64,000 nucleotides of DNA, taken from NCBI GenBank assembly GCA_004353515.1, contig SMNZ01000001.1:1364001-1428000 (forward strand). Reading direction: 5' to 3'. The position numbers and the translations under genes were made by a program. Below, piece by piece: positions 39,450-42,886 of the stretch. How positions within the stretch are numbered: the stretch's first letter is position 1; every line of letters starts with the position of its first letter. The notes beneath the pieces were generated by a model. The model saw only the letters and a list, made by a program, of their open reading frames with translations, searched no databases and was not told the origin of the DNA. Source of the stretch: Alteromonadaceae bacterium M269. Its GTDB lineage: Bacteria; Pseudomonadota; Gammaproteobacteria; Enterobacterales; Alteromonadaceae.

Positions 39450-41111
39450 TTAGGCAGGTTGCGGCTGCACCAAGCTAACCTGCTCACCTTTTTTTGCTTT
39501 AGCGTCCGCCTGCGATATGACATCAGCGGCAGATTTCAATGCGTCAAGGCGCGTAGTAAAGATAGATGAATCGTCATAATGTTCATCAACACCTAAACCA
39601 GTAAGCACACTTTCAACGTCAGAACTTAAGCCCGACACATAGAGCAGCTTACCGCTAGCTTTCGCATCAACGGCAATTGTTTCTACAGCACGTGCCGCCG
39701 ATACATCCATAAAGGGAACACGTTCGAAGTCAAGAATAAGAACTTGTGCGCTGTCTTTCACTTTTTCTCTAACGTGGTGCCCTACATCAGCAGCAGCACC
39801 AAAGCTTAAAGGACCACCAAAGTCAAATACTCTAACCTGACCATGGGCTTGTTCTAATAACGCATGCTCTTCAGGATCATCTAAATGGTCAGGCATATTT
39901 TTAAGCTTATCTAACTGAACTTGCGCAACTTGCTTAACATAAGCAATAGCCGCTAGTACAACACCGACACCAACAGCTTGAATCAGGTCAACAAAAACTG
40001 TCATAGCGACAACGATAGCCATAAGAATCAAGTCAAAACGAGGACCTTTATGAGCTTTTCTGATATAGCTCCAATCAATGATATCAGCACCAGCTTTAAC
40101 CAAAATACCAGCTAATACAGCATGTGGAATATAAGACGCCAAGCTACCTAGGCCAAGTACGATAGCTAATAACAATAGTGCGTGGACCATACCAGATATT
40201 TGACCACGGCCACCGGTACGGATGTTTACGAAAGTACGCATCGTTGCGCCAGCACCTGCGATACCGCCAATAAAGCCAGCAAATGCATTACCAATACCTT
40301 GACCTACTAGTTCTTTATTACTGTTATGACGTGTACGTGTCATGTTATCAGCAACGAGTGAAGTCAAAAGACTGTCGATAGCACCAAGTACAGCTAAGAT
40401 AATTGCAGCTTCAAGAACAAGAGCGAAGCTGTCACCAGTAAATACAGGCATTACCAATTCAGGTAATCCAGTTGGGATATCACCTAAAATAGGAACGTTA
40501 CCTACAATCAAGCTCGCAAACGTACCAATTAACAAGGCAGCTAACGTACCTGGAACATACTTACCCCAGCTAGGTGGCCATTTATAAGCAATGATCAATG
40601 TACCTATGCCTAAGGCTAGCGTATAAGGGTTAATCGCTGATACAGCTGCAGGAATATCACCAATCGCATCTAGCGTATTACTTGGAGATGGATGCCCCAT
40701 AAGTACGATAACCTGAAGGCTGATAATGATGATACCGATACCACTCATAAAGCCAGAAATAACTGGATAAGGAACTAGACGGATATAATCGCCAAGCCCC
40801 AAGAATCCCATTGCTATTTGGATAGCACCTGCCAGCATAACGGCAGTAAAAATTAATGCAGGGTTGCCAGTTAAGCTTGCGAATAAACCAGCTAATACAA
40901 CAACCATTGGGCCTGTTGGGCCTGAAATTTGAGAAGGAGTGCCACCGAAAAGTGCCGCAAAGAAGCCAACTGCGATAGCACCATACATACCGGCTATCGG
41001 ACCTAACCCAGAAGCAACACCAAATGCCAATGCTAGAGGTAGTGCAACAATACCGGCCGTAATACCACCAGTAATATCACCTCTAAGATTCGAGGTATCA
41101 ATTTTAATCAT
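39450..41111 (-). CDS. SulP-family anion transporter, BicA-like (probable bicarbonate uptake)
   Basis: 553 residues, with about 12-14 membrane segments and a C-terminal STAS domain (about 430-530). It is close in pattern to the cyanobacterial Na+/bicarbonate transporter BicA: LPLALAFGVASG near the start, FFAALFGGTPSQISGPTGPM, VISGFMSGIGI, and TRTRHNSNKELVGQGIGN before the last helices. SulP proteins carry sulfate, bicarbonate or other anions; bicarbonate is inferred from the BicA resemblance and the carbonic-anhydrase-like gene nearby. It diverges from a LysR-type regulator, with a candidate operator between them. A terminator follows. Confidence 0.85.
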   Translation of the reverse strand: MIKIDTSNLRGDITGGITAGIVALPLALAFGVASGLGPIAGMYGAIAVGFFAALFGGTPSQISGPTGPMVVVLAGLFASLTGNPALIFTAVMLAGAIQIAMGFLGLGDYIRLVPYPVISGFMSGIGIIIISLQVIVLMGHPSPSNTLDAIGDIPAAVSAINPYTLALGIGTLIIAYKWPPSWGKYVPGTLAALLIGTFASLIVGNVPILGDIPTGLPELVMPVFTGDSFALVLEAAIILAVLGAIDSLLTSLVADNMTRTRHNSNKELVGQGIGNAFAGFIGGIAGAGATMRTFVNIRTGGRGQISGMVHALLLLAIVLGLGSLASYIPHAVLAGILVKAGADIIDWSYIRKAHKGPRFDLILMAIVVAMTVFVDLIQAVGVGVVLAAIAYVKQVAQVQLDKLKNMPDHLDDPEEHALLEQAHGQVRVFDFGGPLSFGAAADVGHHVREKVKDSAQVLILDFERVPFMDVSAARAVETIAVDAKASGKLLYVSGLSSDVESVLTGLGVDEHYDDSSIFTTRLDALKSAADVISQADAKAKKGEQVSLVQPQPA

Positions 41112-41228
41112 ATCTATATCCTATACAGAAACAGCGAAACACCTTGCTCTTCCTTGATTAGCCGAGTGCTTTTTATTTATTCCAACCACTATGGCTTGAT
41201 AGTCATATAGAAAGATATATAATTTGGT

Positions 41229-41245
41229 GATAGCTTTTATCTATC
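41229..41245. promoter_or_regulatory. Candidate LysR-type operator
   Basis: GATAG and CTATC face each other across seven bases (GATAGcttttatCTATC), a T-N11-A-like box between the divergent transporter and LysR genes. Its place, about 30 bp before the proposed LysR start, argues against translation beginning further upstream. Confidence 0.45.
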
Positions 41246-41274
41246 AAAATACTAATGTAAACCAAAGGATACAA

Positions 41275-42210
41275 ATTATCAAAAATAAGCCCACTATCAA
41301 ACAGCTTATTTACTTTGAAGCTGTTGCTTCAACGTTAAATTTCCGTCAGGCGGCGCAGAGTCTTGGTATTACTCAGCCAACACTAACTTTGCAGATTAAC
41401 AGTTTAGAGCAGCAGATAGGGTTTCAGTTATTTGAGCGCTCACGTTCAGGCACATTGTTGTCAGTGCAAGGTCGCGAACTATTGCCTTTAGCTAAGAAGA
41501 TATTGGAAGCAAACGATGCATTTTTAGATACCGCAGATTGGATCAAAAATGGCCCAGTAACAACATTCAAAATGGGTGTACCACCAACGCTTGGTCCCTA
41601 CTTGTTACCTTCTGTCCTTCCTGAATTGCATAAGCAGTATGATGAGCTAAAACTTTACGTAAGAGAAGCACCACCAAAGCTTTTACAACAACAGTTATTG
41701 GACGGAGAGTTTGATTTAATCCTCTCGCCCTTACCCGCTGCATCAAGCGAGTTAGCTATACAGCCTCTATTCATTGAGCCAATAAAATTTGTTGTTCCTG
41801 CGGATCACAAATTAGCGTCAAGCGGTGATGTGTCTGCCTCTCAGATAGCCGGCGAGAACGTGTTGACTTTGGAAGAACAACATTATCTCCATAGGCAAGT
41901 TCAGGATATTTGTCAGCAGTTTGGTGCGAACTTGATGCGCGATTTTGAAGGTACAAGCCTAGATACCCTAAGACAAATGATTGTGATGGGACTAGGTGTC
42001 GCCTTTCTACCAGGGCTTTATATTCATTCAGAAATGCACCGGCCTGAAGCCCTGCACGTATGCGAGCTGCGGGACATTCCCATTAGTCGAAAACACGCAC
42101 TTATCTGGCGTCCTAAGTCACCAAGCCGAGTGTTCTTCAGGGAGTTGGCAAGTCAATTCCGTGAAATTATTAAAGACAGACTAGATAAAGTTGTCACCGT
42201 TATTGAGTAA
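41275..42210 (+). CDS. LysR-family regulator, OxyR-like but lacking the peroxidatic cysteine
   Basis: About 311 residues: winged helix (IKQLIYFEAVASTLNFRQAAQSLGITQPTLTLQINSLEQQIG) and a LysR substrate domain closest to OxyR (TLGPYLLPSVLPELH; TSLDTLRQMIVMG). At the OxyR redox site, the first cysteine is tyrosine (EEQHYLHRQ) while the second is kept (DICQQF), so peroxide sensing by disulfide is unlikely. I propose an ATT start at 41,275 because AAAGGA lies five bases upstream and gives the normal length; in-frame TTG 41,224 or GTG 41,227 would put the operator inside the gene. It probably controls the divergent transporter and the next gene. Confidence 0.8.
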   Translation: MIKNKPTIKQLIYFEAVASTLNFRQAAQSLGITQPTLTLQINSLEQQIGFQLFERSRSGTLLSVQGRELLPLAKKILEANDAFLDTADWIKNGPVTTFKMGVPPTLGPYLLPSVLPELHKQYDELKLYVREAPPKLLQQQLLDGEFDLILSPLPAASSELAIQPLFIEPIKFVVPADHKLASSGDVSASQIAGENVLTLEEQHYLHRQVQDICQQFGANLMRDFEGTSLDTLRQMIVMGLGVAFLPGLYIHSEMHRPEALHVCELRDIPISRKHALIWRPKSPSRVFFRELASQFREIIKDRLDKVVTVIE

Positions 42211-42357
42211 ACCACTCACTACTCAACTTGTAACATTTCTCACTTGAAAAGATTGACAAAAAAGTTACAAACTATGACCCTTGATAGATCTATTGTTAAC
42301 AAAAACGCGTAATGCGATAGAATGAACTTATCAACATAGCTAATAGAGGGGATATTT

Positions 42358-42837
42358 ATGAGCTCATCAATAACAGAACAAGAATTAACAGAAGCGCGCA
42401 AAATATGGGGTGATGCCCTTGTTGCCATTTCCACAGCATACGACGAGCAAGGTCTTGATGCGGCAACAGAATTGGCTAACGGCGCACTTGACGCAGCCTA
42501 TGGTTACAACCTAGGCCCAGTTCTTTTCAAGCCAACACTAGCAAGCGGTGAAAAGACATTCCGCCCTACACGCGAAGGCGCTCTGTCTTACTTCGTAGGT
42601 CACAATGATCAATACCCACTAGACGGTGGTTTCGGTCTTAAGAGCTGGCGCTCAGTTGTATCAGAGACATCTGCTAGCTTTATCAACGGTGACGTTGCAA
42701 TGTGGATGGGATGGGTTACTTTTACCGATAAAGATGGCAACGTAACTAAAGTCGATAAGAGCTGGGGTTACAAGAAGGACGAAGAAGGTACATTACGTAT
42801 CGTTCTACACCACTCTTCACTTCCTTTTCAGCCTTAA
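42358..42837 (+). CDS. NTF2-like protein, candidate iota-class carbonic anhydrase
   Basis: 159 residues, no signal peptide. The NTF2/CaMKII-association-like fold ends with MWMGWVTFTDKDG ... LRIVLHHSSLPF; the HHSS-x-P ending is characteristic of iota-class carbonic anhydrases, which work without a bound metal in some members. Similar proteins are often labelled SnoaL-like or, misleadingly, phosphoribosyl-AMP cyclohydrolase. It lies beyond the LysR gene that separates it from a BicA-like transporter, which supports a role in CO2/bicarbonate interconversion. Codon choice looks optimised, hinting at high expression. Followed by a strong terminator. Family placement is from motif memory. Confidence 0.6.
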   Translation: MSSSITEQELTEARKIWGDALVAISTAYDEQGLDAATELANGALDAAYGYNLGPVLFKPTLASGEKTFRPTREGALSYFVGHNDQYPLDGGFGLKSWRSVVSETSASFINGDVAMWMGWVTFTDKDGNVTKVDKSWGYKKDEEGTLRIVLHHSSLPFQP

Positions 42838-42858: not shown

Positions 42859-42886
42859 AAAACCCGATCAATATGATCGGGTTTTA
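42859..42886 (+). terminator. Rho-independent terminator
   Basis: CCCGATCA/TGATCGGG stem with a three-base loop, flanked by AAAA and TTTTA, just after the carbonic-anhydrase-like gene. Confidence 0.88.

Follow-up and report, generated by a model that had tools for sequence, protein, structure and literature searches.

How does a bacterium in which we detect no beta-class carbonic anhydrase (CA) provide itself with bicarbonate, and does a compact group of three genes hold the answer? The genes lie in a 64,000-nucleotide stretch of Alteromonadaceae bacterium M269 (contig SMNZ01000001.1, positions 1,364,001 to 1,428,000 of the forward strand; hereafter, the window). The initial annotation placed a BicA-like transporter of the SulP family, a LysR regulator, and a candidate iota-class CA here and described them as an inorganic-carbon locus. 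An open reading frame (ORF) check of the window found all three where they had been placed, and matches to domains, profiles, and solved structures bear out their identities (Table 1). CA is one of the classic zinc enzymes. From sequence comparisons, we think it quite likely that the three genes form a unit for bicarbonate supply, with a metal-free cytosolic iota-CA standing in place of the zinc-type beta-CA of related bacteria, under a predicted LysR operator. (Where genomes and loci must be told apart, we use handles beginning with G and L; the window's genome is G000, and the relative that shares its triad is G006, whose stretch is L022.)

The 159-residue protein ends in HHSSLPFQP, which contains the HHSS-x-P signature on which the initial annotation based its class. 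Of the NCBIfam models, just NF047901, named "metal-independent carbonic anhydrase," matches it at E ≤ 1 (residues 3-158, E 8e-61), and its only strong matches in the PDB are solved iota-CAs (7c5x/7c5y, E 2e-79 with three domains summed; 7c5v/7c5w, E 2e-52). In all2909 from Anabaena, Thr106, Tyr124, His197, and Ser199 are important for catalysis (PMC8132391, partial text). These residues correspond, without gaps and at a constant offset of 46, to T60, Y78, H151, and S153 of the window protein. All four are kept in 123 of 123 aligned copies (the window's included), a count for which the Thr and Tyr of the named loci were partly preselected by the scan patterns. An AlphaFold2 model built from 14 aligned sequences (predicted local distance difference test score 91.5) is a cone-shaped, NTF2-like alpha+beta barrel that matches 7c5v with a template modelling score of 0.95 and a root-mean-square deviation of 1.0 Å; the sequence identity to 7c5v is 55%. 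Because the open frame has just 165 codons, there is no space for a signal peptide, and the enzyme should be cytoplasmic. Taking sequence and model together, the protein is an iota-CA, specifically of the metal-independent COG4337 kind, with predicted activity. Membership in the SnoaL family, which was weighed against the iota profile, was rejected: a Pfam search gave no match at E ≤ 1, and SnoaL2 structures are only distant fold matches of the common NTF2-like kind (Foldseek E 4e-4).

The transporter has the Pfam domains Sulfate_transp and STAS. Its best NCBIfam model is BicA (NF050096), and its best PDB match is 6ki1, whose record is labelled "Low affinity sulfate transporter" and which we take to be the membrane domain of Synechocystis BicA. 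The bicarbonate and Na+ ligands of BicA are T69, D258, T262, G300, A301, and T302 (PMC13249358, partial text). The window protein is identical at all six (T66, D246, T250, G288, A289, and T290) under a mapping in which the PDB chain index is taken to run one below the residue number, an offset that we adopted because all six residues then fit. The same ligand string (TDTGAT) is found in the SulP of G006 and of all eight of the other relatives described below. The assignment as BicA-like is thus firmer than when it was first proposed.

Related bacteria keep a different CA at this locus. In a survey of 98 genomes from the window's family, SulP proteins with at least 67% identity were present in ten, including G000. 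In all eight of these other than G000 and G006, a beta-CA gene lies directly upstream of the orthologous SulP gene on the same strand, and in seven of the eight, a LysR orthologue is divergent beside the CA-SulP genes. (G343 lacks a LysR orthologue there; a short match to LysR, at 42%, lies on the margin of the examined stretch. In G106, a second, tandem SulP-beta-CA pair, L073 8826-11009, lies between LysR and the CA-SulP genes, and the SulP of this pair lacks the BicA ligands, with AESQVI.) In both G000 and G006, the iota-CA is downstream of LysR. Neither at the locus nor elsewhere in these two genomes did we find a beta-CA (PF00484); the search, with a control positive in 9 of 14 cases, did detect one in 82 of the family's 98 genomes. 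Alpha-CA and DabA were not found in G000 or G006 either. Because a beta-CA occupies the relatives' locus, none was found in G000 or G006, and an iota-CA with an operator is there instead, it looks as though a metal-free enzyme has replaced a zinc one inside a bicarbonate regulon that already existed, an event that we infer in preference to an independent gain plus a loss.

The triad of G006 is 89% (SulP), 82% (LysR), and 95% (CA) identical to that of the window. None of eight flanking genes tested from the window has an orthologue in a 15-kb stretch of G006 (one 30% match is to a different pseudouridine synthase), in a comparison limited by the end of the G006 contig 3.2 kb past the CA. As the triad is kept although the tested flanking genes fail to match, its arrangement goes beyond chance.

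The two kinds of locus also appear to share an operator. All seven LysR/beta-CA gaps contain CTGATA(G/A)-N4-ATAG followed, 31 bp on, by G(T/C)GATA(G/A)-N7-CTATCA, and nearly identical elements are present in the window's SulP-LysR gap. With a motif matrix trained solely on the seven beta-CA-type relatives with LysR, this gap ranked first in the window and the region upstream of the iota-CA ranked second; both elements are present before the iota-CA of G006 too. The second score, 18.3, was reached by none of 1293 other tiles and by 1 of 5000 shuffles of the 147-bp LysR-CA gap, but it lies within the range of maxima from random 64-kb sequences (mean 15.3, standard deviation [sd] 2.9, largest 26.3, n = 60), so it is unremarkable over 64 kb and telling solely for that gap. 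The pattern GATAGN7YTATC occurs at just these two places in the window, giving three matches if both strands are counted (versus 0.33 expected), and at least three matches arose in 2 of 100 shuffles. Taken together, the beta-CA at the same locus in all eight relatives and the common operator support a joint role in inorganic carbon, as the initial annotation had proposed.

The case for control of the iota-CA is nevertheless weakened by several details. Its operator departs from the others in its second element (GCGATAG...TTATCA) and in its spacing (33 bp, not 31), and the shorter ATAGN7YTAT shows no enrichment over the window (6 occurrences versus 5.86 expected). The -10 element of the predicted iota-CA promoter overlaps the second operator element, and because of this overlap and an orientation that is the same as on the LysR side, repression is as possible as activation. 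The promoters themselves are weak evidence: the stretch has six promoter-like matches, which is no more than in shuffles (mean 4.2, sd 2.3).

We also scanned up to 300 bp upstream of each of 123 other iota-CAs. GATA(A/G)N7(C/T)TATC precedes six of them (L022, L035, L038, L088, L161, and L162). For comparison, this palindrome occurs five times, L161 and L162 included, in 1.14 Mb of sequence around the best 80 loci from a scan of named genomes. At L162, from a metagenome-assembled genome (MAG) of Hyphomonadaceae, a related LysR gene (35% identity) lies opposite a leadered iota-CA (one with an N-terminal leader) with the palindrome in the gap. Three others (L035, L038, and L088) are of a type in which the second His of HHSS is replaced by Gln; GATAG-N7-CTATC lies within 300 bp upstream of these HQSS-type genes, which the LysR regulon may include.

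The regulator has the Pfam domains HTH_1 and LysR_substrate, and its nearest solved structures are OxyR. The resemblance extends to the DNA, as the OxyR half-site, ATAG-N7-CTAT, is like the palindrome at this locus. We rejected peroxide sensing via Cys199, the peroxidatic residue of OxyR: this position is Tyr in the window protein and Tyr or His in all nine aligned orthologues (the resolving cysteine is retained in all nine). The initial annotation was right about the identity and place of the regulator, but the start of the listed ORF is probably not the true one. The listed TTG at 41224 abuts the operator, and the G006 gene has a stop codon in frame immediately before this region, with no ATG, GTG, or TTG from that stop to the conserved domain. 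Since this excludes a canonical upstream start, the true start is probably ATT at 41275, which follows AAAGGA. This rare start codon is conserved in G006 (window 41224-41277; L022 6195-6260).

Table 1. Features of the locus, in window coordinates.
Feature	Position	Strand	Remarks
SulP transporter, BicA type	39450..41111	-	553 aa, STAS domain; domain, profile, and structure matches, ligand residues
Predicted dual operator 5' of LysR: TTGATAG... and GTGATAG-N7-CTATCA, 31 bp apart	41196..41246	+	Top composite score in 64 kb (36.4)
Sigma-70-like promoter for LysR, TTGATA-16-TATAAT	41196..41223	+	Consensus match only, 11/12 positions
LysR-type regulator, OxyR-like	41224..42210 (listed ORF)	+	Likely true start ATT 41275
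Predicted dual operator 5' of iota-CA: TTGATAGATCTATTG and GCGATAG-N7-TTATCA, 33 bp apart	42281..42333	+	Score 18.3
Sigma-70-like promoter for iota-CA, TTAACA-16-TAGAAT	42296..42323	+	Consensus match only, 10/12 positions
Leaderless, cytoplasmic metal-independent iota carbonic anhydrase, COG4337 type	42358..42837	+	159 aa
Intrinsic-terminator-like hairpin 3' of iota-CA	42859..42885	+

How might these parts work together? SulP would import bicarbonate with sodium, and the iota-CA would hydrate cytosolic CO2 to bicarbonate; both would feed bicarbonate-requiring carboxylases. The divergent LysR would control the SulP/LysR promoter region and the iota-CA promoter via the same dual TGATAG / GATAG-N7-(C/T)TATC operator.

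The same parts could have another purpose: pH or sodium homeostasis, instead of providing carboxylases with bicarbonate. The sodium dependence of BicA-type transport (PMC12596568, partial text) fits this idea, as do the genes beside relatives of the regulator. On two plasmids (L221 4880-6933 and L223 1-6927), related OxyR-like LysR genes (39% identity) with the palindrome in the gap face, in one case, a zinc-ribbon protein, a beta-CA, NhaA, and universal stress proteins and, in the other, a stress protein and genes for Mrp-type antiporter subunits. (A third plasmid LysR gene is beside a YdcH-family gene, an SLC13 permease, and a calcium/sodium antiporter, with no CA there.) Because related LysR genes with the palindrome face such genes, a CA-, pH- or sodium-linked regulator is plausible. 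In all eight close relatives, however, it is a CA and a BicA-type transporter that are linked, and although homeostasis is compatible with the parts list, it does not exclude a supply role. We therefore consider homeostasis as the function, instead of supply, to be rather unlikely.

It could also be that the iota-CA is a zinc-sparing housekeeping enzyme whose place beside LysR is incidental and which is not under LysR control. Three of the five plasmid copies of iota-CA that we examined are in zinc-starvation-type clusters (Sagittula L222, Thioclava L218, and Phaeobacter L225; all three copies are leaderless), made up of COG0523-type GTP-binding proteins (a label that is our reading of the annotation) plus HisI or threonyl-tRNA synthetase paralogues and DUF1826 or znu genes; the Klebsiella and Agrobacterium copies lie outside such clusters. 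Clusters of this make-up have been described as Zur-regulated, and the main text of the paper describing them names the gamma-class Cam and does not mention "COG4337" (PMC2770081, partial text). Our literature search found no metal-free CA acting as a zinc-sparing paralogue in such clusters, so this association may be undescribed. Incidental placement is also favored by the neighbors of iota-CAs elsewhere: with the window proteins as tblastn queries, SulP was found near 2 and LysR near 3 of the best 80 named loci. Furthermore, the window's iota-CA comes with its own sites resembling a promoter and a terminator. Against this, the operator is in the gap before the iota-CA in both G000 and G006, the triad stays joined while its flanks differ, and no zinc-cluster gene was matched (tblastn, E ≤ 1e-8) in the 64-kb window or the 11-kb L022 stretch, in a comparison confined to genes (Zur boxes were not searched). 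On this evidence we rejected membership of the window locus in a zinc cluster and consider incidental placement improbable. Zinc sparing is still a reasonable selective cause for the enzyme, though it is not evident here, as zinc-cluster genes are near just 4 of the 80 named loci and none is in the window.

The plasmid relatives raise a separate point about annotation. Most of these COG4337 proteins are annotated as hypothetical or as "phosphoribosyl-AMP cyclohydrolase," and in Thioclava and Phaeobacter a separate hisI is present near the iota-CA despite the cyclohydrolase label. In one published survey, inorganic-carbon genes were tallied with Pfam models, Pfam08332 included (PMC10880623, partial text). 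Since the window's CA matches no Pfam model, enzymes of its kind may be missed in such counts.

Returning to the bicarbonate-supply reading, some further observations tell against it. All three proteins score below the NCBIfam equivalog cut-offs of their nearest models: SulP has 521.7 bits versus 880, LysR has 190.2 bits versus 329 for its nearest named group (OxyR, NF008361), and the iota-CA has 205 bits versus 350 (seven further members from different subgroups, one of them leadered, are likewise under this cut-off, at 125-225 bits). For a poorly expressed Richelia protein that has all six ligand residues, uptake was reported as not significant (PMC12596568, partial text), so residue conservation alone is no proof of bicarbonate transport. 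Window-type loci number just two. Finally, inspection by eye of seven hexapeptide stretches from G000 showed at least two gamma-CA-like genes, so this genome may have working CAs besides the iota enzyme. That a gamma-CA homologue is the working enzyme and the iota protein, whose activity is a prediction, is accessory or an inactive NTF2-like protein seems very improbable, given the conservation of the four key residues, a model just 1.0 Å from an enzyme of proven activity, and 95% identity between two genera.

Does the apparent replacement extend beyond this locus? Among the best 80 named loci, N-terminal extensions, assessed by eye, mark 69 as leaderless (with 70 copies) and 11 as leadered. 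A tree of 123 sequences, made by a quick method with rows picked for their resemblance to the window, puts the 81 rows labelled leaderless, the window, and G006 on one side of a branch (Shimodaira-Hasegawa-like approximate likelihood ratio 96). The window's CA groups among sequences from Verrucomicrobiota, Acidobacteriota, Hyphomicrobiales, and Pseudomonadales, and these mixed-phylum neighbors suggest horizontal transfer of the leaderless iota-CA. Two leaderless copies lie within 8 kb of each other in an Acidimicrobiia MAG (L139, 1294-1758 and 8778-9242). On a conjugative plasmid of Klebsiella pneumoniae, an iota-CA (L219 6923-7483) lies amid insertion sequence (IS) elements and a group II intron, and viral contigs gave one relative, with 43% identity (L217 4001-4468).

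We rejected the idea that iota-CA beside BicA is a general rule, as the best 80 named loci have a SulP neighbor only at L117 and L123, and these SulPs lack the BicA ligands (AECGVI and AECSVI). A SulP with five of the six ligands (TDTGAF) is at L036, from a genome of the same order (G026). On plasmids, the SulP had no match at E ≤ 1e-100.

We searched 50 of the best 80 named genomes for a beta-CA. It was found in 8 of the 44 with a leaderless iota-CA (three of these matches are partial, covering about 70 of 156 positions) and in 5 of the 6 with a leadered one. The alphaproteobacterial family to which Leisingera sp. ANG-M1 (G389) belongs shows this pattern too: a beta-CA was found in 131 of its 149 genomes and any iota-CA in 14. 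Eleven of these 14 iota-CAs have at least 60% identity, and these are leaderless. Just 3 of these 11 leaderless holders have a beta-CA (one by a weak partial match) versus 128 of 138 other genomes (Fisher p 1.2e-6; completeness of the genomes is not given with these counts); of the three other iota holders, two have a beta-CA and one does not. Leaderless iota-CA and beta-CA thus tend to exclude each other in this family.

These comparisons lead us to a broader proposal, which we hold tentatively, at somewhat less than even odds: that in marine and other bacteria (alphaproteobacteria, with SAR11 and roseobacters among them, gammaproteobacteria, Acidobacteriota, Verrucomicrobiota, and Actinomycetota) the leaderless metal-free iota-CA has spread horizontally and replaced the housekeeping zinc beta-CA, and that it was captured here by an as yet unnamed CO2/bicarbonate- or pH-responsive OxyR-like regulator that controls CAs of any class via a GATAG-N7-CTATC operator. 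Much counsels caution. Most tree neighbors of the window's CA are MAGs, some of which may be misbinned. The Fisher tests ignore shared ancestry, G389 was picked in the knowledge that it holds an iota-CA and lacks a beta-CA, and the 60% limit was set after the matches had been seen. In the window's own family, the association is weak: a beta-CA is missing in 5 of 14 holders of any iota-CA versus 11 of 84 other genomes (Fisher p 0.049). The HQSS type in that family, also leaderless, coexists with a beta-CA in six of seven genomes, though it falls outside the window's leaderless clade. (An example is L035 6315-6776; relatives are at L031, L032, L034, L037, L038, L087, L088, L089, and L091.)

If a metal-free class can serve as the main cytosolic CA of a cell, then bacteria in zinc-poor water can drop the zinc need of bicarbonate supply. 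The findings suggest that metal-free CAs are able to assume the everyday job of making bicarbonate in bacterial cells, and the predicted operator and regulator make the link between CA and regulator directly testable.

How does the locus compare with known systems? Zur-regulated clusters of zinc-independent paralogues have a make-up like that around iota-CA relatives on three plasmids, but no zinc genes (COG0523, znu, zur) were matched at the window locus. OxyR is structurally nearest to the window's LysR, which differs in having no peroxidatic Cys and in scoring under the OxyR cut-off. With cyanobacterial BicA, the window's SulP, a putative bicarbonate transporter, shares the six ligand residues, the STAS domain, and 52% identity over the membrane domain; DabA was not found in G000. 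With the COG4337 iota-CAs (Anabaena all2909, 7c5v; Bigelowiella Bn86287, 7c5x), the window's CA shares the fold, the HHSS end, the four catalytic residues, and the equivalents of Phe138 and Lys180. Unlike these enzymes, it adjoins a transporter and a regulator, and it has no signal peptide, whereas most bacterial COG4337 members are predicted to have one (PMC8132391, partial text). Our literature search found no description of an iota-CA paired with a SulP.

The closest parallel is the pairing of SulP with beta-CA, known both as gene pairs and as fusions. Such pairs use orthologues of the window's SulP in eight relatives and of its LysR in seven, but the window's CA is of the iota class and is separated from SulP by LysR, with a copy of the operator in front of it. 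Overall, we rate the parts as known protein families in a known pairing of transporter and CA, and the choice of enzyme and its likely regulation as new.

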